Part shown: positions 21,262 to 57,129 of the stretch, piece after piece
Layout of the letters: each line of letters begins with the position of its first letter
How positions within the stretch are numbered: the first letter of the stretch is position 1
NCBI RefSeq assembly: GCF_018873765.1
Contig: NC_057923.1
Location: 58,646,593-58,710,592 of the forward strand
DNA length: 64,000 nucleotides
Source: Telopea speciosissima
Taxonomy: Eukaryota; Streptophyta; Magnoliopsida; Proteales; Proteaceae
Reading direction: 5' to 3'
Notes under the pieces: model-generated
What the model was told of the DNA's origin: nothing
Database searches by the model: none
Seen by the model: only the letters and a program-made list of their open reading frames with translations
Made by a program: the position numbers and the translations under genes

Positions 21262-21980
21262 TGTTCCAATATAATCAACATACAACAGAAAGAAAATAAA
21301 CTGAGGGGGAGAAGAAATCCAACATAAAGAATATTGGGAAGACGCAGCAAGTGAAGCCATAGAGTCTGCCACAGCATTAGCCTCCATCAAACAATGAGAG
21401 AACCTAACATCATCGAATAACGAGATCAAATTGAAGCAATCGTTAATGCGTCCCAATTCTCCAAGGAATAGCATCTGTTTGACCGCTTAGAAGACGCATC
21501 ACAAGAAGATTATTAGTTTCAAAGATGATCTTTCTTAGATTGGGAGAAAGTGCTAGCTTTAATGCCTTCCTAACCGCCAAAGCTTCAGCAACCAACACAG
21601 AATTCCACCCAACTCCTTCCGAAAAACAGCAAATGAAATTGGAGTTGGAGTCTCGGCAAACTCCCCCAATACCGACATTGCCTGGATTACCCAAACTTGC
21701 GTCATCAATGTTGAATTTCACATATGGATGATGGGACTGATTCCAACGAACCAATCTTCTCTCTCTGACCGATGTGAAGTGAAAGTGACTTACAACTTCT
21801 CTTGCCCATGTGATTGCTCTAAGAATAATCTCTCTTGGGTTGAAAGTCTGTTGACGAAAGGTCCAATCCCAATAACTGATCCAGATGTTCCACAGATACT
21901 GCAGTAATAAGAAATCAACAGGATACAATCCCTATTAGAATCATTCTGACCTTTAATTAGATTGCGAATTGTCGTAGTCA
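21262..21980 (-). pseudogene. LINE RNase H domain, frameshifted
   Basis: On the minus strand the domain reads VKFNIDDASLGNPGNVGIGG, then AEALAVRKALKLAL, then ETNNLLVMRLLSG. After a frameshift near 21445-21470 it continues INDCFNLISLF and then ANAVADSMASLAAS. This is the RVT_3/RNase H fold typical of plant LINE ORF2. The first Asp and the Glu are kept, the third acidic position (usually ETDS) is Asn, and the last Asp (VADS) is kept. A second frameshift near 21900 separates the LWNIW-type segment. It is not a functional gene. Confidence 0.8.
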
Positions 21981-25597: not shown

Positions 25598-27711
25598 TCA
25601 ACTCCTCGGATCGCCTGATTCCCTGGATCCACGATGACTAATTGGCCAGCAAGAATGGATTGAGTTCCACCGTTGTGAAGCTAAAGGTTTTTTATCCACT
25701 CGTGGGCGCTCATAAAATAAATTTACCCTCTTCCTACCTCGACCATTCTTCCACCCATTATCTGTTTGGTTGTAATCTCCTTGAAACCTTGATGTTTTAT
25801 ACCTGGACATGTATTGACTGGCACCATCTCTCTTTCTGTAATTCTCATTCCATGTCCTCCAACTTGCATTGTTCCTGGGTTCTGGATTCTCCCAGTTATT
25901 GTTATTCTTCTCCCATTGGTTGCTTTCCCATGAGTTACCCCTAGGGTCTCCCCTTGTGCTATCCTCTAAAGTATTGTTCCCCCAATCACATTCACGCTCC
26001 CAAGGATTGTCAGCATTATTGGCGTTATGAACAGAAACTTGCAATCCTGGTTCTGATGAGTCATCAATGGTTCCAACTGGATCCTTCTCTCTTTCCCAAG
26101 ACATGTATTGACTGGCACCATCTCTCTTTCTGTAATTCTCATTCCATGTCCCCCAACTTGCATTGTTCCTGGGTTCTGGATTCTCCCAGTTATTGTTATT
26201 CTTCTCCCTGTGGTTGCTTTCCCATGAGATATCCCTAGGGTCTCCCCGTGTGCTATTCTCAAAAGTGTTGTTTCCCCAATCACATTCACGCTCCCAAGGA
26301 TTGTCAGCATTATTGGCATTTGGAACACAAACTTGCAATCCTGGTTCCGATGAGTCATCAACATTTCCAACTGGATCTTCCTCTGCATCACCCCATCCGG
26401 AGCATGGAACTGACTGATTTAAGAAGAGAGAATCAACAACAAGCGTAGACTTCCCCTCTTTGTCATCTTTATCAAAAGGTAGCGGTTCTTGCTCTAAATC
26501 CAACAACAGCTCTGGATCAATATCACAGTTCCAGGCAATTTCATCAATGTAGATATCTGGGTCAGGCAGAGAAATTTCACAGGGGAGGCCATTGATCTCT
26601 GCCCAAAAGCGGCTCTTTGCATTGTCGAATGCCTGTCTGCCAGCTGAATCATTCCACTTGAGCACATTCTCATGGAAAGGCATTACCTTCTTGGCTTCCA
26701 AGATTTTTCTCCAAGGAACTGAACCAACTATGGTGCAAAACTTCTTCTCCCATGTAGGTACAGTAGGGTGCCAGGGCCCTGAAATTACAATTAAGAAAAA
26801 GGTTAGACCCCTCAAGCAACCCCATCATACCTTGATCAATACATAGAAACAGAATAACTCCATGACACCGCCACCACAGTTTTAAAAACCGGATTTCTAA
26901 CATAATAATAAATATCTCATCATAATTCAAGAATCAAAGTTACACACTGGTACTCGAACTCTCATTTCTCACTTAAAAAAAAAAGAAAAAAAAAAAGCAG
27001 CTTCTCAATCATAAAGGTTCTGTTTTATTGTTTTGGGGGGGGGGGGGGAAGAGCCCATGTACAGTAAATGTAAAGGAAATCCTTGTTCAACAAGACCCAT
27101 TTTCCTTATTTTCATTCAAAAAAATATATAATTTTAGAGTTAAACAAACTCAATAAAATCCCCCTTTAGTGAAACAGATTTCTTTCATAAATCATAAAGA
27201 GCAAAGATTTCTTAAAAAATGAAAAGGATAACTCTTTCTTTAGGAAAAGTAGAGGAAGAATAGATTAAAGTTTTTTTTTTTAAAAAAAAGGTAAATCAGA
27301 AACCCAACATGAAACAACTCTAAACCCTAATTAATATCCTTATACCCAGTTTCAGAAATTTCCTCAATAAATAAATTCCACAATTTTCAACATAGAAACC
27401 TGAACACAAAACATCTCGATCTTTCAAACACGAGCATTATCTTCCCCTGCTAAAAACTACTCCACTACTACAAACCCCGCTACCACTTAGCCCAGAATAG
27501 ACATCTAAAATGGGGGGGAAAAAAAACCCAGAAACCATACAAAATATCTGCAAAAGAAAGGCAACTGCAAGAACCCATCAGTGAGTAATCAAACAATCGG
27601 CCAAGTAAACGTACCAGAAGGCGGTTTTCTGTACTGGGATCTTGTGGATGCTCTCCGTGCATCTTGATGATAACTTTCACATCCTCCTTGGCGTCTAATC
27701 CTATCATCCAT
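25598..27711 (-). CDS. Unknown plant-specific protein with WG-containing tandem repeats (paralog A)
   Basis: I recognise a plant family but cannot name it. Exon 1 is 27711-27615 (32 codons plus one base, MDDRIRRQGG start, donor G|GTACGT). Exon 2 is 26778-25598 (acceptor TTTCAG). Total 425 residues. The N-terminal half is conserved with the paralog at 42460-44069: WEKKFCTIVGSVPWRKILEA, then WNDSAGRQAFDNAK, FWAEINGLPCEISLPDPD, and IDEIAWNCDIDPELLLDLE. After SGWGD come two copies of a 98-residue repeat (294 bp) rich in Asn, Trp and Glu (ERECDWGNN, NNWENPEPRNNASW). The tail is basic (GWKNGRGRKR). No signal peptide or membrane segment is visible. The last codons differ from paralog B: the reading stops at a TGA where B continues. 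Confidence 0.75.
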
Positions 27712-31288: not shown

Positions 31289-31692
31289 GGTTCAAAATCC
31301 AGGTATCGGACTCGGTATCGGTCATTGCCAAAACCTTTCCGGATCAGGATCGGATCGGCACAAATCGGTCAAGATCGGTCAAAAAACCCCAAAAATCGTT
31401 TTTTCATGGATCAGGTCATGTATTGGCCAAAGTTAGTGGATGTTTTGATCTTGGTATCGGATCGGCTGATATTATCTAGATCAGATCAATCAATATCGGT
31501 GAATAACGGTCAGTATCGGTCATTATCGGTCTAGATAATATAAAAAAAAAAAACTTAAAAACTTTGAGAAAAAAAAATTCAATCGGATCGGATCGGCCGA
31601 TCCAAGGAACGATCCAGTCAAACCTTTTCGTATCTATCAAATCTTGGGATCGGCCTCGACCGATACCGATTCAATCCGAGATTACGAACCAT
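31289..31692. mobile_element. ATCGG-type MITE, copy 1
   Basis: It starts 'ggttcaaaatccaggtatcgg' (first 20 of it at 31289) and ends 'cgataccgattcaatccgag' plus 'attacgaacc', the ends being imperfect inverted repeats. Nearly the same element is at 59244-59685. It is dominated by GATCGG words. It is non-coding, although frames stay open by composition. Confidence 0.6.
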
Positions 31693-31861
31693 GGCGCCCA
31701 GGCACATGGACAACTTGTGCAGGGGGGTAGAGTGGTCATTGCGCCCACCCCGAGACAGGTAGAGTTGTGTAGAGAGGTGAGAGCAGCCTAAAACTTTGTT
31801 CACTTTGGTGATATGTTGAGTGTGAACTGTCAGTAATCCCTTACTCCTCAAATAAAATCTA

Positions 31862-32413
31862 GGAAAAATTACAAGATTAGCTACAATTAGGTTTCCCATT
31901 ACAAAACTAACCACTCAATCTTTCAATTAACTATATTATGCAAAATAATGATCGGTATTACAAAACTAGCTAAAACACTGTTTTTATTACAACTCAGTAT
32001 ATTTTATGACATTTTTAACCCCACTTTCTCTTCCACCACCGGCTCTTGCTCGGTCACTACTACTGCATTTTCAGACTCATCCCATGGGTCATTCCAAAGA
32101 CCGCTCAATCCTCACCACCACAACCACAAACATTAACAACAAGCTCTTGTCCTGGATCCACCACCACAACCGTCTGGGCGATGCAACACCAATTTCAGGC
32201 GAAGGGATCCCCAACAGGAAGAGAGAGTGAGAGAGGTCGGTGCGATCTTAGGGACAAAAATGTCCAACTCCTAGGAGTTACGTATAGAGGTTACTGTATT
32301 GGTTACTTTTGTAATTCCAATCTTTGTTGTTGCTATATTAGTTAAATGAAAGACTAATTAAGTAGTTAGTTTTGTAAAGTAAAACTCGATTCTAGCTAAT
32401 CTTATAATTTTCC
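31862..32413. mobile_element. Element with ~60-bp terminal inverted repeats
   Basis: The left end 'aattacaagattagctacaa' / 'ttacaaaactaaccactcaa' mirrors the right end (about 32352-32413). The interior includes Pro/His-rich frames without a recognisable domain, perhaps captured host sequence. The paralogous unit at about 37110-37150 lacks the element. A target duplication could not be fixed; Mutator-like is a guess from the long repeats. Confidence 0.5.
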
Positions 32414-32578
32414 TTTGAATTAAGGCGAGACAGGAGGTGGTGATGTGATGGTAGGTTTATAACTAACTAACTATAACTATGTGGTATACTTATATTATAT
32501 ATATTTTTACTTGTTAATTCCTGGTTCTTAGCCCACCATGGAAACACCGGTGCTTCAATTCGCCATTAATTACTCCTC

Positions 32579-32772
32579 TCCTCCATAAAACCTAATCATC
32601 TTTTTGGTTTTCATGATTTTATTCAGTGGAATTGAACCAACTGAGTTGCAGAATTTATTTTGTCTCTCTCCCATGGCTGCTGCTAATGCTATGACCCTGA
32701 AATTGCAATCTTAGTTGGTTCATTTTATGGAGAGAAATCCTGGAAACCAAAAATGTGATGCTTTTTTATGAT
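32579..32772. repeat. Inverted gene-fragment hairpin, copy in first unit
   Basis: The left part (to about 32702) is antisense to the start of exon 2 of the unknown-family gene, including its splice acceptor. The right part (32703-32772) is sense to the same exon ('agttggttcattttatggag', then 'aaatcctggaaaccaaaaat', equivalent to the VPWRKILEAKK region). Arms 32579-32646 and 32703-32772 are complementary at roughly 70% with a 56-nt loop. It encodes no protein. Confidence 0.7.
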
Positions 32773-33961
32773 AATAATATGCTTAATTAGTGGAATGATG
32801 ATGATGATGATCAGACTTTTAACAGGTGATCGAAAATACTATTAATCGTACTATTATGTATGGTTTTATTATGATTCAATTCCTATTTGTTTGATTTGAT
32901 TTTCTAAGAATCCTCTAATTCCTTAATTTCGTGTTTCTATATAGTTTTCCTTAATTAATTTTTTAGAATTAAAAATGTCTCATGTGGGTTCAATTTTCTT
33001 TTGTTCTATCATTTATGTTTTTGTTTTGTTTGTTTCAATCCACAATTGTTTATTCACTCTGCAAAGAAGGAAAAGGGGAAGAAGGAAAAGTAGATGAAGA
33101 AGGAAAAGGGGGGAAGAACACTGGATGAGATTTTTTATCACTGACGATAAGAATTTTTTTCTTTCCTTCAGTTGGAGATGTGGAAACAAGGTCAATCGTT
33201 TAGTTTCATGGATTAGAGTGTTGGTGATTGGTGTCTTTGCACAAGGATTTTGCTTCACCATCAGTGCTGTCACTTAGTGTAGGTCATCCATATCAATGCA
33301 TTTCTTTTTATATTAAAGGGGGGGGGGGGGGGGGTACCCTTGAGGTAGGGGCTTAACGATCAGACAAAATTCTTTTTTCCAAAATTTTATTTCAATAGAA
33401 TGACTTACTTCTATCCCATTTCTGAATTCACTTCTCTACTGTTCTAGGAGTGATATTTGTAAAACTAGTATTTGGTCTAAAGAGAATGATTCAAAAGCAT
33501 CAAAACTAGGATGTAATTTATGGTATTATTTTCTTTATAAAGTTAATCATACATACACTAATCATATAAATTCGGAAAATCTTATTGTAACTAAATATTT
33601 TAGTAATGTATTGAGGAAATACGAAACCCTATATGGGTATTCGTCCATGGACGTAGACACTCTGGCCGAACCACGTATATCTGGTGTTCTGTCTCACACT
33701 TATTTTTAATATATATTTGAAGTGTGTGTTGTGAAGAGTGGGGGGACACTGTCTGGTAGACCTAGCCACGTTGTGGTGTGTGGTGGACGTGTCTATGTGT
33801 GATTGGTAATTACGGGACTGCCCCGACCAATCTTGAATTGTAATTGAGAAAATAGCACCAGTGCGATATCCGTTAGAGATTGGAAGAAAGTTTTTGGTGA
33901 CCCTGATTCACCCCCCACTTTTATCTAAGACGGCTTGAAAATTATGGACACAACCCGAGAG

Positions 33962-35027
33962 TAGGGGTGTCAATTGGTTGGGCTCGGTCGGGTTCGGTTG
34001 GGCCTAGGCGGGTCTCATGGTGCTAAAAGCATGCACCGTGACCGCCCATTTAAGTTTTTGGGCCGGGCTTGGTAGGGTTCGGTCGGATTAGGCCGGGCTT
34101 CGGGTTATAAACGGGCTGTTATATTCGGGTCATAACCGGGCTGTGGGCATGTTTAACTCTTAATCGGGCTCTAAACGGTGCAGCCACATAGGGCTGAAGA
34201 AAAAAACTGACCGTTAAATCAAAATAAAAACTTACTTTAAACTTTATATAAAGATAGTTTATATATGATAGTTGTCATACGGTAATGAGAGATTAATTTG
34301 ATTATTAAACAATACTTTAAATCAAGACAGGAAAAAAATATAAAATATAAAGATTGAAAGTATCAAACTAACTGGGTAAGTGAAAACTGACCTGGTAAAG
34401 ATTCTTTTTCAAGTCTAAGCTGACCCTAAGAAACTCAAAGCCAATTTTCAGGTGTGGCTTTCCCTTGTAACACAAGGGGTTTACGCGAACTTGAGAGAAG
34501 TCAACAAATTATTAATAAACCAAATACCATAAACCCCTTAAGTTGGTTATTTATTGATTAATTTACTATAAAGAAAGCAGGAAAAAAAATGGATTTTATT
34601 TATCGGTTCAGATGTATATACTACCTCATCTCTCCTTTCTTGTTCTTTAATGGCGAGGTCAATTATATCTTGGGTTGGGATGATTTTCCATTTGGGAATG
34701 ATCTTGGAAAGCTTCGCCAATGCACTAATAACCAATGGATGAGGTCTCATATCATCTGCAATCTGTAACTTACAGTAGAAAGAAAACCAATTAGTAGTTA
34801 AACTTAAAGGGTCGGGCTAGATCAGGCTGTAATCGGGCAGGCTACGTCGGGCCTGGAATCGATCGGTCCAGTCGGATGCCTGACGGGCTAAAACCTCACA
34901 CCGGGACCGCTTACTTACTAAATATGTCAGGTTTAAGCCAGACACGTTTAGTAAACGGGCCGGGCTGGGCTTTAATCGGACGGACTCGATCGATTCTATC
35001 GGGCCGGGCCTGGAATTGACACCCCTA
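33962..35027. mobile_element. hAT-like element carrying captured gene exons
   Basis: The ends are TAGGGGTGTCAATT and AATTGACACCCCTA. The 8-bp duplication is CCCGAGAG (33954-33961) and CCCAAGAG (35028-35035). The tandem unit copy at 38957 is an uninterrupted empty site reading 'cccgagagcatgttgg'. Subterminal 'cgggc' words match 20387-21251. The centre holds two exons of a lipase-like gene on the minus strand. Because the sister unit lacks it, it inserted after the unit duplicated. Confidence 0.88.
34392..34762 (-). pseudogene. Captured exons of a monoacylglycerol lipase / caffeoylshikimate esterase-like gene
   Basis: On the minus strand, 34762-34625 encodes IADDMRPHPLVISALAKLSK followed by IIPKWKIIPTQDIIDLAIK, with an acceptor TTACAG before and GAG|GTAGTA after. 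Then 34489-34392 encodes NPLCYKGKPHLKIGFEFLRV and SLDLKKNLYQ with a GT donor. Both match consecutive parts of plant MAGL/CSE alpha/beta hydrolases (cap region before the Asp/His part). The catalytic GXSXG and the Asp and His motifs are absent, and the phases between the two exons do not join simply. It is therefore a fragment, not a gene, moved inside a hAT element. Confidence 0.75.
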
Positions 35028-35035
35028 CCCAAGAG

Positions 35036-35410
35036 CATGTTGGCATGTATTCTGTAAGCAATTTACTACCCAAATGACTCTTTCCTCTCGACTAGAGTGG
35101 GACACCAGCTAGCTGAGGTTGGCGAAATATTGTGGAGGGACAAAAAATCCTAAAATATGGCTTGTGTGGGTGTGTAGGAGATGGTTCTTCCATTAATTTA
35201 TAGATCGATAATTGGGTTCCTACTTTAGAGGTATTCCAAGTATCGTCTCCACATCCTGCTTCTTTTCCTATTGATTTGGTTTCTGAGTTGATTGACCATG
35301 AGACTAGTAGTTGGCGAAGAGACCTACTGAAATTGAACTTCTATGCATCTCGAATGTCACTGAAATCTTGAAGATCAATTTATTGAACCTATCATTTATA
35401 CAACTCATCG
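35036..35410 (+). pseudogene. LINE ORF2 fragment (first unit)
   Basis: Same sequence as 39000-39310: a LINE segment equivalent to the CVGDGSSINLWIDNWIP stretch that precedes the zinc-knuckle region in plant LINE ORF2. It has frame-breaking changes. The upstream part of the fragment is deleted here relative to the second unit. Confidence 0.65.
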
Positions 35411-36049
35411 GTGGTCAATTTAGAATCGGAATCTAAAATCAATCGAAACTAGCTATTTAAAATTGAACCTGAAAAATCATCTATTTGAACCAAATCAAAT
35501 AAAGTATAACAATTATAAACCAAACTTAAATCATACTAAACCCAATAATCAATTGTCTTTGTTGAGTTGTGTGAAATTATCTACTATAGATATCTTTGTT
35601 GAACTGTGTAAAAAAGGTCAAAATTTATGAAATATGACATCGTAGGATTGTATCATCATGAGATTTAATTTCCTTTCCAATTATATTTGTTTGGTTCCAT
35701 TTTGACACCCTTATGATCATATAGACCAAGTGCAAAAGGGTTAAAAAGGAATAATAATGAAAAAGACTTAATTATCCTTACCCATTTTGAGGACAAAAAA
35801 TGATTAAATTATCCCAAATTAATCCCACATAATGATAAACTTAAGTAGACAGCCTCACTATCAATCAACCCAATGACTTAAACGTGATAGTGCAGTTGAA
35901 AGTCTTGAACCTTTCTCCCTACGATCTTTACTCTTGATCTCTCTATATGTTTTAAGGAAAGTTGTTTTCTACCGTCAAGTGTGGCGTATGTGTCTCTCTC
36001 TCTCCTCAAAACATGGTGGAGAGATGTCTTAATATATGGGGACATGGTT

Positions 36050-36285
36050 TTAGTGCATGGTATCCGATCGAGTATTGGTCATCTTCAAAACCGATATGGT
36101 ATCGTCATGGATCGGCTGTATCGGACAAGTTTATCCCTCGATTTTCTTAAAAATAGGTTTTCTTGACTATTTTACCCATTGTTCGTACCGTTCCACCGAT
36201 TTGGTATCGACCAAGTATTGGTATCGATCACCTTCAAAGTTGTGCAATATCGGTCGCATCGGGCAATCCAATACCGATACTTCAA
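36050..36285. mobile_element. ATCGG-type MITE (first unit)
   Basis: It begins 'acatggttttagtgcatggt', continues in 'gatcgagtattggtcatctt' words and ends 'ccaataccgatacttcaa'. The sister copy at about 40021-40252 keeps a better right end, 'cctcaaaccatgt', an inverted match to 'acatggttt'. Confidence 0.55.
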
Positions 36286-36385
36286 TACCTATCCACACTC
36301 CCATACAAAGTTCTTTTTCTCATCTTTTAAATTATAAAATCTATGTTGCAAAGCATATCCACAAGTCAGCAGCCACATTGCTGAC

Positions 36386-36724
36386 TAGGGGTGTCAATTG
36401 ATCGATTTGGTTAGTCTAAATTGACCAATCCAAAACCAAGTTCGATTTTCAATTTTGCTGAATCGGCCAACCAAAATCAAATCGTTAAAAAAAGTTTGAA
36501 TTTGATCTGATTTCTTATTAGTTTTTCGTTATTGACTTGTAATTGAGTTACTATCGAGTTCGGCCAACTTTAGCAATGAGAATTTTTTATGTATTTAATT
36601 ATTTTTAGGTTTTCGGTTTCTATCAATTTCATAACCCCCAACCAAACCAATAAGGATTTCAATCCAAGTTGAATTAGTCATTCTGGTCGGTGCAATCGAT
36701 TCATGCAGAACTTTGACACCCTTA
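36386..36724. mobile_element. Small hAT-like element (first unit)
   Basis: The ends are TAGGGGTGTCAAT and TTTGACACCCTTA. The flanks TTGCTGAC and CTGCTAAC agree at 6 of 8 positions, a decayed 8-bp duplication. The same element at the same place in the next unit (40388-40728) shows that it predates the tandem duplication. Confidence 0.65.
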
Positions 36725-37350
36725 CTGCTAACTAATTAGTCAGGCAAATTTTTTTTTTTCAGAAAAATCTCACAACACCAGAGCAAGGATTCTAATCACG
36801 AATCGGTGTATATCAATCAGTACCGATATCAATACAAATACGTTCTATTAGGTCGGATTGGACCATTTTACCCTTCAAAACACCTACACTGGAACGAATC
36901 TATCTCTCGTCGTCCTCTCTTGTTGGTGCGATTAAGGGTGTGAAGTTAGAATCAAAACAGAAAATCAGAAGCGGTTGATGCTACTATATAACTAACCAAC
37001 TGTGGTTATGGTTCCTGATTTTCCCATTAATTACGTACCCCTAACGTTGTGGGCCCTGATAACTGGTAGAGTTGGGTAGAGAGGTGTGAGGTGTCCGTAA
37101 TCCCTTGCTCGTCAAGTAAAATCTAATAACGGTTTTAATTTGGAGCCTTGAATTAAGACGAGACAGGAACTGATGGTTTCTTTATAACTGTATATATAAG
37201 TATTTAGTATACTTAATTACTTCTTAATTAAAATTCCAGGTTCTTACTTGTTAGGGGAAAGGTAGGGGAAAACAAACTTAACCCACCACGGCTCGGAAGA
37301 AAGGAAGGAACCAGCGATTGATGCTTCGCCATTAATCGATCCTCTCCATA

Positions 37351-37607
37351 AAACTGGATCGTCTTCTTTGCTTCCATGATTATATCCCATGGAAGTGAAC
37401 CAACTGAGGTGCAGACCCAACTTCTTCTCCCATGGCTGCTGCTGGTGCTGCTGCTAGGACCCTGAAATTACAATTAATATATTTATTAATACAGATTAGT
37501 ACAGATTATTGGGATGGGATGGGATGGGTTTAATTTGCAACTTAGTTGGTTCATTCTATGGAAAGAAATCTTGGAAGCTAAGAAGGTGATGCCTTTTTAT
37601 GACAAAA
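37351..37607. repeat. Inverted gene-fragment hairpin, copy in second unit
   Basis: Antisense arm 37351-37412 ('tttgcttccatgattatatc', 'tggaagtgaaccaactgagg') and sense arm 37534-37607 ('cttagttggttcattctatg', 'atcttggaagctaagaaggt'). The sense arm still reads WKEILEAKKVMPFYD, close to paralog A's WRKILEAKKVMPFHE. The loop of about 120 nt includes antisense of the exon 2 start with its splice acceptor (37425-37485) and a GGGAT repeat. Confidence 0.72.
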
Positions 37608-38719
37608 TATATATATATATATGTAAGCGTGGAATGATGATGATGATACAGATCAGACTTTTCACATACAGGTGAAAATAATATTGTTGCCTAAGTAAGC
37701 TCATAATTATTTCTAGTAGTACTGTTACTTCAATTTTGATTTTAGTTCAATTATTTCAAGTTTTGGTCTTGGCAATCATATATATTGGCATTATACCTCT
37801 ATTCTTGTTATAAATTTGATTTTCTAATTAAGAATTCGGCCTCTTCCTAATTAATTTCATGTTTCTATATGTGTAGTTTACCTTTCTTTCTTAGAAATAA
37901 AAATGTCCCATGTTTGGGTTCAATTTCTTTTGTTCATCATGCTTAATTATGTATTTTATATTTAATTTGTTGGGATTTCATCTAAATTTCTTTTTTTTTT
38001 TGGTATGTGTTCTACTAATACTACCATATCTCCCGCTCCAACACAACACCCCCCCCCCACTCCCCAAAAAAAATAAGAAGCTAAAACCTAAAGGTCATCC
38101 ATATCAATGTATTTTTTTTTTATATTAAAGGGGGGTGGGGGTGGATAGTAATTTTGTACCATTAAGGTAGGGGTTTAACGATCAGACCAAGTTCTTTTTC
38201 CCAAAATTTTATTTCAATAGAATGACTTACTTCTATCCCATGTCTGGATTCACTTCTCTACTGTTCTAGGAATGACATTTGTAAAACTAATATTTGGTCC
38301 AAAGAGAATGATTCAAAAGCATCAAAACTAAGATGTAATTTATGGTATTATTTTCTTCATAAAGTTAATCATACATACAATATTCATATAAATTATGAAA
38401 ATCTTATCGCAACTAAAAATTTGAATAGTGTATTGAGGGAATACAAAATTCTATATAGGTATTTCTCTATGGATGTAGGTACTCTGGCCGAACCACGTAT
38501 ATTTAATGTTCTGTCTCGCACTTATTTTCAACATATATTTGAAGTGTGTCTTGTGTAGAGTGGGGGGGACACTGTCTGGTGGACCCAACCACGTCGTGAT
38601 GTGTGGTGGACGTGTTTGTGTGTGATTAGTAATTATGGAACTGCCCTGGCTAATCTTGAATTATAATTAATTGAGAAAACATCACTAGTGCGGTATCGAT
38701 CTGTTAGAGATTGGAAGAA

Positions 38720-40728: not shown

Positions 40729-42459
40729 CTGCTAACTAATTAGTTAGGTACACTGATCACGGATCGGTGTATATCAGTCACCGCTGATATCAATAAGAAT
40801 CGGTTCTATTAGGTTGAATTGAACCATTTTACCCCTCAAAAGACCTACACTTAAAGGGACCAAAATGGTTGGTCCAATATTGATACATAAAACCATGCAC
40901 CGGAGTGGTGATTTGTTTCCACGCTCCCTCACATAATGACTTGTAGAATTTACACAAAATATCTTACCAAAAGGATTTACACAGATATTCTTTCCCATCA
41001 GACAAAATGTGAGCCCCAACCGAACCAATCTATATCTTTCGTCCTCTCTCGTTGGTGCGGTAAAATGAATTATTTCTGGTAGTACTGTTACTTCAATTTC
41101 AATTAGGTGTGTGTGTTTCTATTTCTAGCTACCTACCTTTATGTTTTTTACATTTATTAATATCGATTTGGGGATTTTAGTTTATTTCTAAGTTTTGGTC
41201 TTGGTAATAGGGCATATATATTGGCATTATACCTCTATTCTTGTTATAAATTTGATTCCTAATTTGTTTAATTTGATTTTCTAATTAAGAATCCGGCCTT
41301 TTCCTAATTAATTTCATGTTTCTATATATGTAGTTTACCTTTCTTTCTTAGAAATAAAAATGTACCATGTTTGGGTTCAATTTTCTTTTGTTTATCATGT
41401 TTAATTATGTTTTGTTTGTTTCAATCCAATTAAGTTTCTTCATGATTTCCAATCTCTTTTTTGTGTCTAGCTATGTGATTCTCTGTTATTCACAATATAT
41501 ATAGGTACGTCTTGTTTCTTATATTTTTACTCTATGATTAGAGTGCATCATGCGAGCTAGGGTGATTTTAGATGATTTAGGGTATAATTATTATCATGGT
41601 TATTAAATTCTTAATTTGAGTAGGATAATTTTTAAATTCTGATATTTATCCTCATGATTTGTTGCATGTTTGGACCTATTTTAGCATTTCATAAGTAATA
41701 ATATCAGATCAATCAAATCAGATTCGGCCATGATGATCCCGATTTTAAACATTCCAGAAAGATTGATTCTAGGGTTTTTTTCTTAGGATTGATTTTAGCC
41801 GATTCCATATCGGAGGTATTCTTACAAATGGAGATGCAATAGGTCGGGTTGGACTAGACCGATCCATCAAACGGATCTGATCCGACCCAATTAGGCCGAT
41901 GCGTATTCACCAAACCTCCAAACGTTGTCCTTGATTTTTAATATCCGGGGAAGTTTCCGAATTTCCGTTACTCCAAGCCACATTACGCGCGTAAAAAACT
42001 TTGAATCTTTTAAAAAATCCGTCATTTTCTTGTAAATTGCAACCTTTCAAGAGTCTGTCAGGATGGAATTTACCTAAACTAAAAGGGTTATTTTCGTCAA
42101 CCTGTTTAAACATTGGGATGGCAAAGACATAATTATAAACAACATCAGGGATCAAGACAAGAGCTGATGATTTATATATATTTTATACTTGTCCGAAAAC
42201 TAAAAGAACCGTTTTTTCTTGTTTCCTTCCAAGTTCGACATTTACTTCTCTTTCCCTGTTTTCTGATTTTAAACAAGATCGCTATTACTCCTCCCCTCTT
42301 TCCCTGTTTGTCTGATTTTCTCTCAAATTCCTATGTTTATACCTATATTTGTTCGATCCAAAATAGGTTTGATCTTCTATTCAAACTTTCCGTTCGTTTT
42401 TCTTGTTCATCAGTGAGGCGGCAGTGCTGTTTGTTTTGGTTCTTTCAAAAATCGAAACT

Positions 42460-44069
42460 ATGGATGATAGGATTAGACGCCATGGAGAATGTCAAAGTTT
42501 CAAAGAGGCACCGAGGATACCGCCAAGATCGTACAGAAAACCATCTTCTTTTGGTACGTTTACTTATTGCTTGATTGATTGCTCAATTACTTCACTGAAT
42601 AATGGGTTCTTGTAGATGGCTTTCTGTGTTGCAGAAATATGTGGGGCGTTTTCTGGGTTTTTATTTTATAATTTTATTTTCCATTTTTGGATGTGTATTC
42701 TGAGGTTCAGTGGTAATGGGGTTTATAGTAGTGGAGTTATTGTTTTTAACAGGGGAAGATAACGATTGTGTTTGAAATATTGGGGTATTTTATGTTTAGG
42801 TTTCTTCGTTGAAAAATGTGGAATTTATTTTTTCAGGAGGTTTATTGGGGCTTAGAAATTTCTTGTGTCCGTAGGATCATGTGTATTTCTACTTGTCGTT
42901 GTGTCATGTTGGGGTTCTGCCTGACTCTTTTTTTGCTTCCTCTTTAAGTTTTCTAAAGAAAGAGTAATTCTTTTCTTTTCTTTTCTTTTTTTTCTTAAGA
43001 GTCTTTGCTCTTTAAACTGTGGTGTTGTTGTTATGGAGTTATTCTCTTTTAATGTTTTGAGCAAGCAGGCAAAGTAGGATTGCTCGAGGTTTCTAACATT
43101 ACACTTGTAACTTCAGGGTCATGGCAGCCAAATGTAGCAGCTTGGGAAAAGAAATTTTGCACTTCAGTTTGTTCACTTCCATGGTTTAAAATCATTGAAG
43201 CGAAGAAGGTTATGTCACTATACCCGAATGTGATTCAATGGAATGATTCAGCTGGCCAAGAGGCCTTTAACAATGCCAAGCACCGGTTTTGGGCAACTAT
43301 CAATGGCCTCCCCATTGATATCAGTCTCCCTGACCCCAATTTGTACATAGATGAAATAGACTGGAACTGTACTGTTGATCAGGAGCTGCTAGCAGATTTA
43401 GATCGAGCACTACTACATTCTGATGATGACGATGAGAAAGAGGAGAAGTCTGTGCTTATTGGTGATTCTGTCTTCTTCTTAAATCAACTAGTTCCATGCT
43501 CCGGATGGGGTGATGATGCAAAGGAAGATCTAGCCAGAATTGAGGACAATACTGCTGACAATCATTGGGAGTGTGGATGTGCTGCTTGGGGGAATTTGTT
43601 AGATAATAATACCACATGGGGAGACACCAGAGGTAGCTCATTGTTGAAGAAGAAGAATACCAATAACTGGGAGAATCCAAAACCCAACGGGATTAATGCA
43701 AGTTGGGGAAACATTTCCAGGTATTCAGGCGGGCCAATTAGTCATCATGGATCCAGGGAAGCAGGCAATCTGTGGAGTTGGGAGAAGAAGAATACCAATA
43801 ACTGGGAGAATCCAAAATCCAGCAGGATTAATGCAAGTTGGGGAAACGTTTCCAGGTATTCATGCGGGCCAATTAGTCATTGTGGATCCAGGGAAGCATC
43901 CAATCTGTGGAGTTGGGAGAAGAAGAATACCAATAACTGGGAGAATCCAAAACCCAGCAGGATAAATGCAAGTTGGGGAAACGTTTCAAGGTATTCATGC
44001 GGGCCAATTAGTCATCGTGGATCCAGGGAAGCAGGCAATCTGTGGAGTTGGGAGAATTCTGTTGCTTAG
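42460..44069 (+). CDS. Unknown plant-specific protein with WG-containing tandem repeats (paralog B)
   Basis: Paralog of the gene at 25598-27711, with the same two-exon structure. Exon 1 is 42460-42553 (MDDRIRRHGE start, donor G|GTACGT) and exon 2 is 43117-44069 (acceptor CTTCAG). Total 348 residues. Conserved blocks are WEKKFCTSVCSLPWFKIIEA, WNDSAGQEAFNNAK, FWATINGLPIDISLPDPN, and YIDEIDWNCTVDQELLADL. An acidic stretch (DDDDEKEEK) and SGWGDD follow. The C-terminus is three copies of a 45-residue repeat (135 bp) built on KKNTNNWENPK, INASWGN, and SRYSCGPISHRGSRE. Its repeat unit differs in length and content from that of paralog A, although the WENP and ASWG cores are shared. No targeting signal is evident. 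Function is unknown. An open frame with correct splice sites suggests a living gene. Confidence 0.75.
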
Positions 44070-49135: not shown

Positions 49136-49540
49136 CGATAGGAGTTAGGCTGGAAACAGAAAATCAGAATGAAAAACCGTTTGTTGGTTTAAAATTTAAC
49201 CGAATTGAGTATGGTCTGGTCTATTTACAACCGTAACCCATAAAATCTGCTGCTTTTGGAGAAGATTCCTAAGAATCTGGTGATGATATGTTTGTTGGTT
49301 GTGTGTGAGCTGTGATCCAATCCTTGCTCCTCAAGTGGAAATCATATATATAATTGTACCTTAATTATTATTTATAGGTAGGAGGGAGAGAGAGAGATGG
49401 TGATGCGGCTAGCGGCTAGCGGCTAATGTCTTGATTTCTAAAGAAGGTGAAGGGTGAAGAGTGAAGGGGGTACCTAGCTTTCTAGTAGACTTGTCTCCTC
49501 TTTGTGTTCTTCAGCAGAAGGTGTAGGAGGGAGTTTCTGT

Positions 49541-49797
49541 GTCAAAATCCAATAGCAGCTCTCTGGATCAAAATATTTAGGGTTCCAATGAATTTGTCAT
49601 CTATGTACAAATTTGGGTCAGAGAGAGTGATATATATATGCATGGCAAAAAGAAAAGATGATGAATCATGAATGGCCATTAATTAATTTTTGGGTTGAAG
49701 CAACAATATTTCTCTGCCTAACCCAGATTTGTACATATATGAACATTAGAACTCTGATATTGAACTGGAGCTGTTGTAGGATTTAGAACCAGAACCC
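49541..49797. repeat. Inverted gene-fragment hairpin, second type
   Basis: The antisense arm 49541-49632 and sense arm 49706-49797 both derive from the part of the unknown-family gene that encodes SLPDPDLYIDEI...ELLLDLE. The sense arm still carries 'aacccagatttgtacatata' and 'gaactggagctgttgtagga'; the antisense arm has 'catctatgtacaaatttggg' and 'aatagcagctctctggatca'. The loop is about 73 nt. Stops prevent coding. Confidence 0.7.
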
Positions 49798-50089
49798 AAC
49801 CCCATTACCTCCTTATGAAGATTACAAAAAGGGGTATTATGTCTACACTTATTTCCATCAATTCCGGCCTCTACATCGATCGATCGATCGGGGGTTACGT
49901 ACGTGATAGCAGAGGATTAATCCAGTTAATTAGAACTGAACTGTTGAAGATGACTCCTTGAACGAAACCAGGTTGTCCTTTTTCACCGTACTATCTGGGA
50001 ATTAATTGTTGTTGAGGATTCCAAATCACCTTTCTCGATGGGAGAAATATTCTCCACCGAAATACAGCGTGGACCACTCCCATTGCTGC

Positions 50090-50240
50090 TGCTGCTGAGT
50101 TGCAGAATTTCTTCGATCTCTCTCCCATGGCTGCTGCTGCTGCTTCTAATGCTATGGCCCTGAAATTGCTATCTTACTTGGTTCATTTTATGGAGAGAAA
50201 TCATGGAAACTAAAAATGTGATGCTTTTTTATGAGAATAA
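50090..50240. repeat. Antisense plus sense fragment of the same gene (partly decayed hairpin)
   Basis: 50090-50168 is antisense to the exon 2 start with its splice acceptor ('ctctctcccatggctgctgc', 'gctatggccctgaaatt'). 50170-50240 is sense ('ttggttcattttatggagag'). It is homologous to 32640-32772, but the outer antisense arm is lost, so base pairing would be weak. Confidence 0.6.
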
Positions 50241-50307
50241 TATGCTTAATTACTGGACTGATGATGATGATGATGATTAGGTGATCGAAATAAGTTCTTA
50301 TTAATTT

Positions 50308-51843
50308 GGGTAAAGTACACGCAACCCCTTATAATGCACCCAATATTTCTCGTACCCCCTATGTTTCTGATAAATTCACGTACCACCCTTGCTTTACCCC
50401 TCTAATGCCATTTAGGTCCACACTAGGTATTAAATGCTAAAAAATTATCAAAACTACCCTTTCTAATATTTTTTCTAAAACTTGAAAAGACCTAATTGCC
50501 CTGATCTATTTGCTAAAAATTGAAAAGACCAAAATGCCCTCATCTTCTCCAAATCATCATCTTCTTTTACATATCCATCACCACCACCCATCGTTAACAC
50601 CATCACCACTGTGAAGCCCCACCTCCAACTCCTTCAGCTTTACCAATTCCACCACCTGTCCCCCTCCCTTGCCTATTCCTCCACCAACACCGCAGATTTG
50701 GTAAGGGCGCGGTGGTGGATTTAAGCTTGATTGGAGGAAAAAACGAAAGGGAAAATGGAGAAAAAAAGGGACAAAGAAAGAAAAATTCTGATATCCACAT
50801 CATCTATTTTCGCCTACCCCTACTTCCATATGCACCTTACACACAATGGGACGCGCAAAGACCGCCTTACCCCCACTTGGGCAGGGCGCTCGGGCAGGAG
50901 TAAGGCGGACTTTGCACGCCCCATTGTATGTAGGACACACATGAAAGTATGGGCAGGTGGAAGTAGAGGATCCGAACTCAAAATTCTGAGAATTGAAAAA
51001 CAACCAAAAAGAGCGGCGATCAACGAGATGGGACTGGTACTTTGATAAAAAAAAATGAGATGGGACTGGTACTAATCACATACCCATCTCTCTCTTTTTC
51101 TCTATCTCCCTATTCCCCAAGTCCAGACGGAAACTCATTCACAACCATTGAACCGGTAGCAGAAAGAGAGGGAGAGAGATAGAGAATGAGACATGGGAAG
51201 GTGGTGCTATGACTTCTGAGTCTTGTGAACCAATATATTTTTCTTCTCTCGTTAATTAATTCGAAAACCCAAAAAAGGGGGAAAATTAGAAGCAGATTGA
51301 GTAATAGAAGGGGACAAAACTAAAAGAGCAAAAAACCAGAAGGATAAAGGTGGGAGGTGTTTCGGGGAAAAATCTCAGATTTTGGATGATTCGTTCTTCT
51401 TTTTTTATTTTAGTTTTAATATTTTTTTAGGGCAGGCGGTAGCAGCGCTCGAGCACTGCCATTATAAAGTGATGTTAGCAGTACTCCATCAATGTCATCC
51501 GTTGAATTATTATCATTTAATCTTAAACGTATATTTTATTAAACACATTACCTGTTCTTTACCCATATAGCCGGTGAATTTTTCATCTCTTTCTTTTTTT
51601 TGTTTTTTTGAGGAAAATTAGATCCTCGTCCCCTGTACTTTGCCTTAATTACACATCCCTCCACATAGTATAATTGAACCTGTATAAGAAAGGGTAGTTT
51701 GGTAATTTTTTAGCATTTAATACCTGGTGTGGACTTAAATGGCATTAGGGGGGTAAAGCAGAGGTGGTACGTGGACTTATTAGAAGCTTAGGGGGGTACA
51801 AGGAATATTGGGTGCATTACAAGGGGGTACGTGTACTTTACCC
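50308..51843. mobile_element. Mutator-like element with ~150-bp terminal inverted repeats
   Basis: It begins GGGTAAAGTACACG and ends CGTGTACTTTACCC, with the inverted match extending about 150 bp. The exact 9-bp duplication TATTAATTT is at 50299-50307 and 51844-51852, as expected for a Mutator-like element. There is no transposase. The interior carries host-like low-complexity sequence and a nested foldback (50818-50960). It sits inside a copy of the tandem unit. Confidence 0.88.
50818..50960. mobile_element. Foldback MITE nested in the Mutator-like element
   Basis: Inverted arms: 'cacacaatgggacgcgcaaa' / 'gaccgccttac' at the left, and 'gtaaggcggactttgcacgc' / 'cccattgtatgtaggac' at the right. 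The ends are not resolved. Confidence 0.65.
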
Positions 51844-51900
51844 TATTAATTTCTGGTAGTGTTACTTCAATTTCAATTAACCATACTATTATGTATGGTG

Positions 51901-53690
51901 TTTTTTTTTTTGCTAGGAACATACTTATTATATTACCCTTAGATAGAAAAAAACATATTTACATCATATAAGAAAGGAGGCATTACATTCCTATTTGTTA
52001 TAGAGAAAGAGGCAAGGGAGCGTAGTCTACTAGTCCATATATTATTCTTATGTTTAAACTCTACATTTATAAAGTTTGAGGTTTGTTCTGCCAGTTCAAA
52101 AAAGGTGGGTATAAGGTGCCACAGAATGGGTATGTTTTGCTTGGCAGTCATAAGGTCATATAAACTCTGGTTAGTGATCCAAATCTCCTTAAGTTGGATT
52201 CCATCCTTTGCAGCATGCGTCCATCCCTGTAAGATCCCAGTTAGTTCAGCCTACATGTCATCAGTTGAATGTGCAAACCCTGCAGATGTTAAAACACTCT
52301 GGTTGTCTAGCAAAATGCAGTAAGCCCATCCTACTAGGCCTACTTTTGGTTAAAAAAGACCTGCACAGCACAAAATAGGTGAGTTCATTGTATGGTTGCT
52401 ATTAGTTGTGTCAAATTCAAGATCTATATGCACACTATTTTCAAGAGGGTGGTTGTGCACAAATGGTGGTTTTTACTGAAGATCATGAATCCATTTGGTA
52501 ACAAGTTTGAGTATAGGGATGGGGTTGGGTGCTTCCACCTTATTGATTACTTTATTTCTTACATTCCAAATGAAGTAGCAGGTAATAATAAAAACTGAAA
52601 AAAACCAGCTGGCAGTCGGTTTATCAAAGGTCTTGGATTGGAGGATGGTGGCACAAAGCTATGCCAAACAAGAACTTCTTAGGTGCTCAGTTATGAGTCC
52701 AAGGGGTCCGTAGGCCCAGATACGCTTAGTCCATTCACAAGATAGAAAGAGGTGCCACTAGTGGGATTCATCATGAGCACCACAGAAAACACATGTAGGC
52801 TCGATCGATGTTCACTTTGAGAGAGTACTCTTGACAGGTAAACCTGCATGCAATACACGCCAAAAAAACAATTTAAACTTCGGATGAATATTTAGTTTCC
52901 AGAAAAAGTGTCACCACTTGGACTCAAGGGGCTTGGATTGCCAAAGTGGATTTAAAAGGTTTGTAGCATTTCGGGTAGAGAAGCTACCATCTTTTGTTAG
53001 GGAGCACCTCCATTGGTCCCCAGAATCAAAGAGATTTATTTTAGAAATTTCAAAATTCATATGATTTGGTAGAATTCATGCAAGTGTATCACAGTTCCAT
53101 CTAAAATTAAGAGTTAGATCCTTAACCAGGCTGAAGGATTGGTTGTGAAAACATGGAGGAATACAATGGCCCGGTATTGTTGGTACCCATGGGTCGAACC
53201 AACAGTTGGTTGTCATACCATTCCCAATTCTTCTCCATACTTTTTTTTTTTAGGTCAGGTAGCACCGAAGCAATACTGTTCCAAGTCCAAGTTCCTTTCT
53301 TCATTGCTACTTTTGAGTTGAAAATGGAGGTGTTCGAGAAATATTTAGCTTTTATAACCTTGGCCCATAAGGAATCATTTTCATTTATCAGTCGCCAGCC
53401 TAGTTTAGTGATGAGGGCCTTGTTGTGGATGTGGGATTTGCGAAACCCTAGACCCCCCAGGGATTTGGGGTTACAAATTTTATCCCATCCGATTAGGCTA
53501 GCATTATGTCTATTTGGTGGGTTGTTGTTCCAGAAATACCATCTCAACATCATCCGAACCCCTCAATCAAAGGATTCCCCCTTGATTGTGGGTGTGGGAA
53601 AACTTGATCCTATTTCAACTCTGACAATAATGCGTGAAATGGTTAAAAGACCGACCGTAGTTTATAATTGGTCCAACTTATTGTAATCAA
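51901..53690 (-). mobile_element. 5'-truncated LINE with poly-A tail
   Basis: A T11 run at 51901-51911 marks the minus-strand poly-A. Reading leftward on the minus strand, 53553-53122 encodes the post-RT segment (NRHNASLIGWDKICNPKSLG, then HNKALITKLGWRLINENDSL). Around 52800-52600 comes a zinc-knuckle-type piece (HLFLSCEWTKRIWAYGPLG), and at about 52390-51940 an RNase H-like part with stops. The 5' half (endonuclease, RT core) is missing. It inserted in a copy of the tandem unit ('actattatgtatggt' at 51883 matches 32849). Several frameshifts and stops make it non-functional. Confidence 0.78.
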
Positions 53691-54750: not shown

Positions 54751-56091
54751 AAACACTTGCCAAACATTTTTTGCTACATCCTCCACAAAAAAAAAAAAAA
54801 AAAAAAAGAGGGATTGAAAGATACTGATACTTTAATTTTACACCTTTAAAAAAAAATATTCAAATCTAACGGCTTGGGGGTTGCCACGCACGTTCAGCAA
54901 CACCCGAGCCACTCCCACGTTAGCCCAACCCGCATCGGACCCCATACAAACCCAGCTTGGTTTGGTTGCGTGCACGCCACGCTTGGCCTTGCCAATCCCA
55001 TACTGATTGGATGAGCCCTTGCATGCAGGCTTACCCATTCCATGCGTCCAAGCCCACGCCCAACTACCTGCCCGTACGGCCCACTTATTGGGCCCATCCG
55101 CTCAAGCTCGTTTTGGGACCTAAAATAATGATTTTTTTGCCTATAACACCCCATTTGGAGAGCTAAGAGCTGGCCTCTTGAGCTGAAAATTTTTCTACAG
55201 CTAAAATATCTTCCCCTATTCCATTTGGCAAACTTCCTACCCATAGCCTACCCCTATATAGTTTGAAAAAGGGAAATGATAGGTCACCTTCTGAGTTACA
55301 CCCTTATTTTAATGCAACTCCACTAAGTACCCAAATATCAAAATGAACCCAAAATCTAATGGGGTTTACCTTTTAACTGTTAAGTAGTGACGTTAAGAGG
55401 TTATACTAAGGGAAATGATAGGTCACCTCCTGAGTTACACCCTTATTTTTTTTAAAAGAAAATTTTGCCATTGTAGTGTATGAAGAATTACACTAACAAG
55501 GAATTTGACTACAACACTAAAAATCAATCATGACCGAGAGGCCCATCACCACTTGTGGGCCTGGATAACCATAGTTCGAAATTTCGCCTCGTCTCACCAT
55601 TCCGGTTTGGCAAAAAATTCCAAAATTTCGATGAAATATGATATTTTTTCTGCCATATTTCGGCACTCCATCTCGGTAGGGGTTTTTTGGCCATATTAAG
55701 GCCTGATACTTCATTTACATTTTTATTTAAGCTAAATAAACACATTTAAACCTTCATATTACAAAAAACTAAACTCAAAGTGGTGTTTTGGGTTTGCACC
55801 CTTGATTGACAATATACGATCGGACCCTAATGTATAAATAGTTAAATACATATTATTTAAGTACTAAAAGACATTATAAGAAATTTAAACAAAATAATGA
55901 AACAAATTTATGAAATTTCATGAAATACTGACAAACCATGGACTTTATCTTCTTAAGATAATTCAAAGTTGTATTTTGCTAGCCTTGAAGTCCTCTCATC
56001 CGAAGCACAAGATCCCATCAATTGAGCGAGTTGCTTCCTTTTTTTTTAATTTTTTTTATGGAAAGAGTAAAGATATATTAATGGGAAAAAA
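54751..56091. other. Gene-free interval with small repeats
   Basis: 54850-55090 is GC-richer with open frames on both strands but no signature. A 137-bp direct duplication ('gggaaatgataggtcacct') occurs at about 55270 and 55408. At about 55565-55715 a MITE-like block of 'cgaaatttcg' / 'catatttcgg' words lies near 'catagttcgaaa'. Confidence 0.45.
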
Positions 56092-56244
56092 AACTCTCTC
56101 CGGGAGTGCGGCCTACACTAGTACTCCCATGAGTCTATCTCTCTCCTCCCGATATGAAAAGACATCTTTACCCTCTTGTTTTGAAGAGGAGAGAGATAGA
56201 CACATGGGAGTGCTGCCGTAGGCCAAACTCCCGGGCAGAAAACT
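56092..56244. mobile_element. Foldback MITE
   Basis: The left arm 'ccgggagtgcggcctac' with 'gagtctatctctctcctc' mirrors the right arm 'gaggagagagatagacaca' with 'ggccaaactcccggg'. A partial relative is at about 40262-40315. Confidence 0.7.
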
Positions 56245-57129
56245 GCTTCCCTATATTAATATAGGGCAACTAGAAATAGGGCCATACGAAATGACTTTCA
56301 CATTCCCTATGGAAAGACGGAAATCTCTTGGGGTGTGGCAGTCTTTTTGCGCTACCCTTTGTCTGGGTGCAAGGGCTGCGCATTGCACGAGACTAGATAG
56401 AATTCTCTTTCCTATTAATATAAAATAGAAGTTACATTGTCTGATAGCTTGGGTAGATCGAGTGTCCATTACTTTACAAGTTAATCTGGAGGGGAAAGAA
56501 ACCACAAGAGCATTCACTCAGGCATCTGGTGGAGCATTGTAGTGCAGCCCTGAGAGCTCGACACGTGGAAGAAGCTCTATGCAACGGTGAGAACTCGATG
56601 TAAGGCAATTTTGTGTTTTTTTTTTTTTTCTCTCTTCTTTCTTCTCAAGTTTGACATTGTTGGATGTCGCATCTTCCAGGTGATGAGCTCTCAGGCCTGC
56701 ACTACACTGCATTGCAAGATTAGGGCATTGCAGACGATGTTTTTTCCGCCTGAATTCCTTATCTCCATTCTTTTATGGACGTGGGAGTTCATTGATTGAT
56801 TGGGATTGGATCCTTGTAGGAGATTCAGATCCATCTTGTTGGTCTTATTTCAAAAAAAAAAATTAAATAAATAAAAAGATAAGGTTTTCACCTCTCGAGA
56901 TGAAACATTCATTGTACCATTAATCTATGTTTACAAGCCCTATAGCATTTTAGTCTTTTCCCAGATTTACCCTCGCAATGCCTTTTTATAGGGTTTTTGT
57001 CTTTCCCCAAAAACACCGTTGCAATGCCGGCCTTTCTATAGGGTTTTAGTCTTTTCCCAAAATACCCTCACAGATAATAATAATGAATGGTAGGATTTAC
57101 AAAGATATTCATTCTCCTTAGACAAAGAT

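Follow-up and report, generated by a model that had tools for sequence, protein, structure and literature searches.

A family of gene-derived hairpins interleaved with their parent genes in Telopea speciosissima, and their possible role as MIRNA-like loci

Introduction

Can an inverted copy of part of a gene become a regulator of that gene, and by which signs would such a locus be recognized long after its birth? The question is raised by a 64,000-nucleotide stretch of the Telopea speciosissima genome (assembly GCF_018873765.1, contig NC_057923.1, positions 58,646,593 to 58,710,592, forward strand; hereafter the window, whose own numbering is used throughout), in which two back-to-back pairs of antisense and sense exon-2 pieces, H1 and H2, lie between two paralogs, A and B1, of a gene for a WG-containing protein. 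With modest confidence, we favor the reading that H1 and H2 are members of an amplified microRNA gene (MIRNA)-like family that was born by inverted juxtaposition of exon-2 pieces and would repress its parents. Plant MIRNA genes are recognized by a 21-nt duplex with five or fewer unpaired bases and small asymmetry, a foldback of about 300 nt or less, precise excision of a 20-24-nt miRNA/miRNA* pair, arms conserved above loop and flanks, and compensatory change. Sixteen gene-derived Arabidopsis MIRNA loci, MIR161 and MIR163 among them, have been described (Fahlgren et al. 2007, PMC1790633).

Inverted pieces of one exon fold into hairpins

The hairpins and the genes that flank them are arranged as follows.

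25598 to 27711, minus strand: paralog A, with exon 1 at about 27711-27615 and exon 2 at 26778-25598; WG-containing protein
32579 to 32775, plus strand: H1, a type I hairpin, with antisense 5' arm at about 32584-32655, a loop and sense 3' arm at about 32700-32772
37347 to 37607, plus strand: H2, a type I hairpin, with antisense 5' arm at about 37347-37413, a loop and sense 3' arm at 37532-37605
42460 to 44069, plus strand: paralog B1, with exon 1 at about 42460-42553 and exon 2 at 43117-44069

A profile search of the window (nhmmer), using exon 2 of paralogs A and B as the query, recovered one antisense and one sense match at each place: 32594-32709 (E 2.4e-12) and 32708-32824 (E 7.6e-8) at H1, and 37349-37479 (E 7.7e-22) and 37534-37604 (E 7.9e-11) at H2. 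Self-alignment of the arms agreed with these matches, covering 68 columns at 73.5% identity in H1 and 67 columns at 77.6% in H2. Both places fold as imperfect hairpins, H1 at -73 kcal/mol (z -7.06, equaled by none of 200 shuffles) and H2 at -103.3 kcal/mol (z -8.36, none of 100). Exon-2 homology of the four arms spans about 70-130 nt, intron sequence included. In alignments, the antisense arms of both hairpins cross the splice acceptor and take in the last part of the intron, and the antisense piece of H2, which carries the acceptor, extends past its arm to 37479. Because the intron end is part of them, these arms derive from DNA. The preliminary description of this locus, made from the sequence alone, had proposed the back-to-back pieces, the imperfect hairpins, the genomic source of the antisense arms and the position between two parent paralogs, all of which our results bear out; it had also proposed an origin of the inverted-duplication type, which is upheld by arm homology to a protein-coding gene beyond the target site. 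That the hairpins are gene-derived is certain for practical purposes.

The exon-2 search revealed two more inverted pairs, W3 and W4. Type I and type II hairpins come from two different, neighboring parts of exon 2, the type II part being the later one.

49486 to 49860, plus strand: W3 (also H3), a type II hairpin from the later part of exon 2, with antisense arm at 49486-49633, a loop and sense arm at 49706-49860
50027 to 50262, plus strand: H3b, a decayed type I copy whose 5' arm is nearly gone (E 0.003) and whose sense arm is retained; z -1.5, no stable fold
57525 to 57971, plus strand: W4 (also H4), a type II hairpin, with antisense arm at 57525-57677, a loop and sense arm from about 57785 to 57971

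Sense homology at W3 continues to 49974, and the profile pieces of W4 are 57525-57677 (antisense) and 57763-57971 (sense). Neither hairpin was equaled by any of its 100 shuffles (z -6.68 for W3 and -5.77 for W4). Type I and type II pieces sit in tandem at W3 and are not nested.

An amplified family shares an array with its parent genes

We searched the whole T. speciosissima genome (822,943,500 bases in 1287 contigs; match counts are lower bounds) and found at least 30 DNA matches to H1, at least 29 to H2 and at least 17 to the type II hairpin W4. After 20 stretches and two short ones had been extracted, these proved to include at least 13 type I hairpins with both arms (H1, H2, K10b, K11, K15, K16, K17, K18, K19, K21, K22, K23 and K26) and at least seven of type II (W3, W4, L010, L013, L014, C7 and C3, the last two named after their contigs). 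The two loci first described are the only ones between A and B1, but at least 20 two-armed hairpins are spread over five large contigs. One-armed pieces (K19c, K24, K25 and others) and partial matches on contigs C2, C7 and C10 stand outside these counts, and one counted copy, K21, carries about 1.5 kb within its loop.

In the genome, 20 protein matches corresponded to A, a relative on contig C10 (hereafter also C10) that is 72-78% identical, three B copies on contig C8, two further B-like copies, one of which contains a stop, and fragments; none fell on C3, C9 or C11. Exon 2 codes for four WG and two GW motifs in A and for six WG and one GW in B1, and a comparison of the parent protein with Pfam and PDB returned no family or structure at the cut-off. 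Synonymous divergence (dS) between A and B is 0.66-0.69.

On C8, hairpins are interleaved with the three B copies in the order A (minus strand), H1, H2, B1, W3 with H3b, W4, B2, L010, K10b, K11, B3, L013, L014 and K15 (minus strand), with L010 and L013 each consisting of a type II hairpin plus a decayed type I copy. B1 lies inside the window, and B2 and B3 lie about 30 kb apart. Together with type II hairpins, B2 and B3 recur at this interval (genome G000, C8 at 58.716 and 58.746 Mb, stretches L009 and L012), probably through recent tandem duplication. Between B1 and B2, 13 changes fall within 31 exon-2 columns and three elsewhere in the aligned stretch, which is possibly a conversion tract. 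Elsewhere in the genome, the clusters on C3 and C9 look like segmental copies because they are collinear over about 14 kb, in pieces about 85-94% identical, with an insert of about 13 kb in C9. Several dispersed type I copies are followed, at a distance of about 2-3 kb, by a third, sense-oriented piece of exon 2 (L016:398-469, L018:1254-1325, L021:1559-1633 and L024:6449-6508), for which the exon-2 search of the fetched stretches found no antisense partner.

Arms vary less than loops and flanks

Arm limits were set from homology to exon 2, and all copies compared come from this one genome. In each of three copy groups, arms held a smaller share of variable ungapped columns than loop plus flanks: 20/146 against 113/398 among H2-like copies (Fisher p 3e-4; seven of eight copies, without K21), 20/139 against 76/230 among H1-like copies (p 8e-5; all five), and 20/303 against 53/212 in type II (p 6e-9; five of seven, without C7 and C3). 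Gapped columns were nearly confined to the surroundings, with 0/146, 4/143 and 0/303 in the H2-like, H1-like and type II arms and 197/595, 228/458 and 96/308 outside them. Mean pairwise distances were 0.105, 0.111 and 0.248 for the loops and 0.027-0.065 for the arms of the three groups. Such a profile is that expected of a functional hairpin RNA, and the arms are likely under constraint.

The distant type II copies extend this pattern. The antisense 5' arm was the best conserved part of W3 in both comparisons, with 140/148 identical positions against C7 and 144/146 against C3, versus 118/134 and 142/155 in the 3' arm and 38/50 and 44/52 upstream. Arms differed from the rest at p <=0.01 in four of five such comparisons.

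Pairing appears to be kept across copies

All 19 uninterrupted full hairpins (12 type I and seven type II, K21 being left out) folded better than each of their 60 shuffles, with z from -3.2 to -9.6, and three decayed copies did not (z -0.9 to -1.5). Even C7, the most distant type II copy, reached z -6.07, with 0 of 100 shuffles as good. As cut, the type I segments measure 216-309 nt and the type II segments 439-496 nt. For pairing tests we used an alignment (A1) of 12 type I copies, again without K21, for which RNAalifold gave 49 consensus pairs. Consensus-stem cells were paired in 98.3% of cases and in 39.7-52.8% when the partners were slid by one to three columns, the covariation score was matched by 4 of 500 shuffles, and the internal loops recur in all 12 copies. 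Of the 728 cells in 61 homologous column pairs, 635 are paired, compared with means of 578-609 when neutral evolution was simulated on the tree and rescaled to about the observed divergence; in the four settings (two roots by two kappas), 0, 0, 5 and 25 of 400 neutral runs paired as highly. Pairing appears to be kept, and the evidence for co-evolution of one arm with the other is weak.

The inversion is old and may join two paralogs

How long ago did the arms come together? Arm-arm distances (Kimura two-parameter, K80) are 0.36-0.59, and A and B differ by 0.31-0.36 over the same stretches. Divergence between the arms thus equals or exceeds that between A and B, which means that the inversion is not young, and the earlier picture of a young locus does not hold. 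A recent locus with a perfect hairpin was considered and is ruled out by this divergence.

The arms had also been assigned to a single gene, and of this the exon-2 homology stands but the single source may not. With further gene copies added (231 columns), 179 of 200 bootstraps placed the antisense arms beside the B genes and the sense arms beside A and C10, and 19 placed both arms together; on 422 columns the counts were 142 and 57. With A and B alone, the two-parent grouping prevailed over arms together by 110 to 88 for type I, 181 to 19 for type II and 164 to 36 for the joined set. Approximately unbiased (AU) tests of topology nevertheless left the single-parent tree standing (p 0.55, 0.23 and 0.31, from 1,000 replicates, too few by the program's own standard) and so allow one parent. 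We regard two source paralogs as likely, on these groupings, but open. Juxtaposition of two related duplicated sequences has been proposed before, with MIR846 and MIR824 as cases (PMC1790633).

One site hints at a closer match between hairpin and neighboring gene. In the aligned antisense stretch, W3 and L010 differ at 10 columns, four of them within 6 nt (49608-49613), where the 5' arm of W3 has the state of its neighbor gene B1 (AATTTGTAC). There L010, L013, L014 and W4 have GACATATAC or GACAGATAC, close to the GACACATAC of B2 and B3, with GACA.ATAC common to these four hairpins and both genes. In the same alignment the sense arms of W3 and L010 are identical. The matching could stem from gene conversion, from template switching or from selection. 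The C3 copy has most of the W3 state, including ACAAAT, which leaves the direction of change open and weakens W3 as the changed copy. A literature search for template switching as a source of hairpins gave nothing relevant among the matches listed.

Predicted small RNAs match paralog B

Every one of the 17 hairpins tested (12 type I and five type II, without K21, C7 and C3) holds 28-80 segments of 21 nt with five or fewer unpaired bases and an asymmetry of three or less. Target sites were scored by a simple plant penalty that allows no gaps and counts double at positions 2-13, and as a control we compared 20 random segments with A and B1, the best of these 40 comparisons scoring 4.0; in the control run exon 1 was cut about seven bases short for A and one for B, leaving exon-2 results unaffected. 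Predicted penalties for the 17 hairpins against seven gene copies ranged from 0.5 to 6.5. The best 21-mers of the 5' arm scored 1.0 for H2, K10b and K11 against B1-B3 and 1.0 for W3 against B1, K22 scored 0.5 against the B-like copy on C8 at 38.96 Mb, and four type II copies scored 2.0 against B2. Against A the best 5' arm penalties were 2.5-4.0, and against C10 3.0-5.0. Predicted complementarity of H2 and W3 to B1 is clear, as the preliminary description had anticipated for paralog B, and that of H1 and W4 to A and B1 is marginal.

Within the arms, matches to the genes cluster in one 24-nt interval on antisense arms (p about 0.01 for H2 and W3) and also on sense arms. The most conserved 21-column segment lies on the sense 3' arm (0.957), with the best 5' arm segments at 0.91-0.94, and a genome search with the complement of that 3' arm stretch found no clear target family. 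A TATA-like motif occurs within 250 nt upstream of 13 of the 17 hairpins and in 15% of window tiles, a contrast that owes something to common descent because the copies are not independent. We consider it probable that the hairpins make small RNAs, and somewhat likelier than the reverse that such RNAs act on A and B.

Weighing the readings

If the family is MIRNA-like, RNA polymerase II would transcribe each hairpin unit from its upstream region, and DCL1 or another Dicer-like enzyme would cut small RNAs of about 21 nt from the stem. Loaded with those from the antisense 5' arm, Argonaute would then be directed to exon 2 of A, of B1-B3 and perhaps of C10 and reduce the expression of these genes. 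The hairpins and the B genes multiplied within a single array, so silencer dose may go up with target dose.

Several results weigh against this reading. Stability alone would not single out these hairpins: in a coarse foldback scan of the plus strand, which compared 638 tiles, each 250 nt long, with 12 shuffles apiece, z fell to -7.4 or below in 12 tiles outside them, and tiles cutting through H2, W4 and H1 ranked only 25th, 33rd and 37th; gene origin together with arm conservation is what is distinctive. Conservation has its own exceptions, since W4 and C7 do not differ significantly between arms and the rest (p 0.17), C7 lacks 19 nt of the 3' arm, and H1 and H2 taken alone are no more alike in their arms (75% and 79%) than downstream (76%). 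The sense arm of H3b is 111/120 identical to H1 despite the lost fold, so an arm can remain conserved without a hairpin. In the pairing tests only two pairs are altered on both sides (233 of 500 shuffles as high), further pair types number 14 against a shuffle mean of 15.1 (all 500 shuffles at least as high), and the neutral test has little force in the setting that gave 25 of 400 (midpoint root, kappa 4). Arms pair no better with their own partner (52.92 of 61 pairs) than when swapped within (52.76) or between (52.40) subfamilies, and arms swapped within the window likewise equal their own. Copies on C3, C9 and C11 sit inside wider duplicated blocks and may be passengers. Penalties for H1 (3.5 against A, 4.5 against B1) and W4 (4.0 against both) lie near or within the control range, the clustering of gene matches marks no target site because sense arms show it too, and a product of the sense 3' arm, being sense, would not target the parents.

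Four other explanations deserve weight beside the MIRNA-like one. The hairpins may instead be small interfering RNA (siRNA) loci, in which several Dicer-like enzymes would process long imperfect stems to a mixture of 21-24-nt siRNAs, leading to silencing or methylation of the parents; the type II foldbacks, with arms of about 150 nt, and the presence of more than one good predicted target site along an arm suit this account, and plant local inverted duplications are described as spanning uniform miRNAs to heterogeneous siRNAs (PMC1790633). We nevertheless judge it unlikely, as the arms are just 60-78% identical to each other and form no perfect duplex, and the same internal loops recur in 12/12 aligned type I copies. 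About as doubtful, or a shade more so, is that the hairpins are remnants without a function: an old inverted pseudogene fragment would have been carried along in larger segmental duplications, its fold inherited and unselected. The collinear blocks shared by C3 and C9, the equal pairing of swapped arms, the decayed copies and the unexceptional arms of H1 and H2 are all as this would have it, whereas arms that are almost gap-free and less variable than loop and flanks in three copy groups, and pairing above nearly all neutral runs in three of four settings, are not.

It is improbable, in our view, that the main product is instead the sense 3' arm (TTAGTTGGTTCATTCTATGGA), directed at another gene, with the parents a mere source of sequence. 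That stretch is the most conserved segment and its product would begin with U, young loci derived from one family and targeting another have been reported (PMC1790633), and between W4 and C7 the sense arm is the better conserved (0.90 against 0.85 for the antisense, loop columns mixed in). Yet all 13 genomic matches to its complement at zero or one mismatch fall in hairpins or one-armed copies, eight more appear at two mismatches with four outside known copies, and when C7 is compared with W3 or C3 the antisense arm is ahead (0.95 against 0.88). Less probable still is that a transposable element captured the inverted exon pieces and carries the unit as cargo: copies are dispersed over five large contigs and foldbacks and repeats are numerous nearby, but the copies share broken, collinear multi-kb blocks whose ends differ between pairs.

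The MIRNA-like reading can be carried further, though only speculatively and with no better prospects than we give the siRNA account. Target and two kinds of hairpin silencer would have been co-amplified in one array, with arms from two diverged paralogs and each type II hairpin tracking its nearby gene copy by gene conversion or selection. Hairpins of such parentage would be imperfect, and thus fit for microRNA processing, from birth. The whole would act as a self-scaling brake, any gain in target dose bringing a gain in silencer dose.

Relation to known systems

As a rule, plant microRNA loci derived from genes are discovered while young and as single copies, and this family would provide a mid-life stage with many diverged copies, a known parent, parents adjoining some hairpins and a measurable conservation profile. 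Three questions could be put to it: do new MIRNA genes have to pass through a perfect-stem stage, are silencer and target amplified together, and do hairpins keep up with the sequence of their targets? Among inverted-repeat silencing loci, the soybean CHS inverted repeat, Antirrhinum SULF, Mimulus YELLOW UPPER and Arabidopsis PAI each consist of an inverted gene-piece copy whose small RNAs act on the parent genes; such loci are recent, occur singly or in small numbers, and have known small RNAs and phenotypes. The Telopea hairpins are likewise inverted gene-piece copies, but are old, diverged and many. We know of no link between miR482/miR1448 and a WG-containing parent gene family. In poplar these two are related MIRNA hairpins grouped within a single transcript (PMC3475693).

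Closer parallels come from loci of the MIR161 and MIR163 type, whose foldback arms also resemble a protein-coding gene beyond the miRNA site and some of whose miRNAs target the parent family, a targeting that is predicted here (PMC1790633). Nearly all of the 48 non-conserved Arabidopsis families are single genes with demonstrated small RNAs in that account, whereas here at least 20 copies of two types occur in one genome and the hairpins are known from sequence alone. As in MIR846 and MIR824, the two arms fit two related duplicated sequences, antisense with B and sense with A and C10; the difference is that here the fit is to two diverged paralogous genes, with moderate statistical support (PMC1790633). 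The inverted-duplication model for rice and Arabidopsis MIRNAs proposes the same route of origin (PMC3237417), but the stem here does not come from a miniature inverted-repeat transposable element (MITE), and the MITE-like insert close to H1 falls outside the hairpin.

The hairpin family was absent from the results of the Rfam and literature searches made. Rfam covariance models run over the whole window at gathering scores found only a transfer RNA and no microRNA family, and over 31500-38500 at E up to 10 just two sub-threshold small nucleolar RNA matches. Text searches of the literature for three short arm sequences (12-16 nt, spelled with U and with T) gave only unrelated matches, and a search on small RNAs of Proteaceae or Telopea gave nothing relevant among the matches listed. 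Inverted-duplication MIRNA loci are a known kind; what is unusual is the copy number, the two hairpin types from one exon, the array shared with the target and the local sequence matching.

Upstream elements and other features of the window

A 53-nt element (family D18) precedes all four hairpin units of the window, its copies being 62-89% identical to the reference copy at W3.

31805 to 31857, plus strand: shared upstream element of H1, separated from the hairpin by a MITE-like insert
37069 to 37121, plus strand: shared upstream element of H2
37191 to 37200, plus strand: TATA-like TATATATAAG, about 157 nt upstream of H2; a possible promoter, by consensus match only
41030 to 41822, plus strand: L5, a unit remnant without a hairpin that retains upstream and downstream homology
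49288 to 49340, plus strand: shared upstream element of W3, the reference copy
57336 to 57388, plus strand: shared upstream element of W4

The insert between the shared element and H1 (31855-32421) has 65-nt inverted arms that are 78% complementary, and an element with inverted ends of about 170 nt (88%) lies at 50300-51850, directly after H3b. Strong foldbacks at 1797-1909, 8488-8639 and 56074-56263, with approximate z lower than that of the gene-derived hairpins, look like MITEs. Open reading frames at 21443-21931 and 53122-53562, both on the minus strand, resemble what we take to be RNase H or reverse-transcriptase remnants of retroelements without long terminal repeats. At 10466-13909, also on the minus strand, lie the exons of a WD40-repeat gene, presumably that of splicing factor PRP4.

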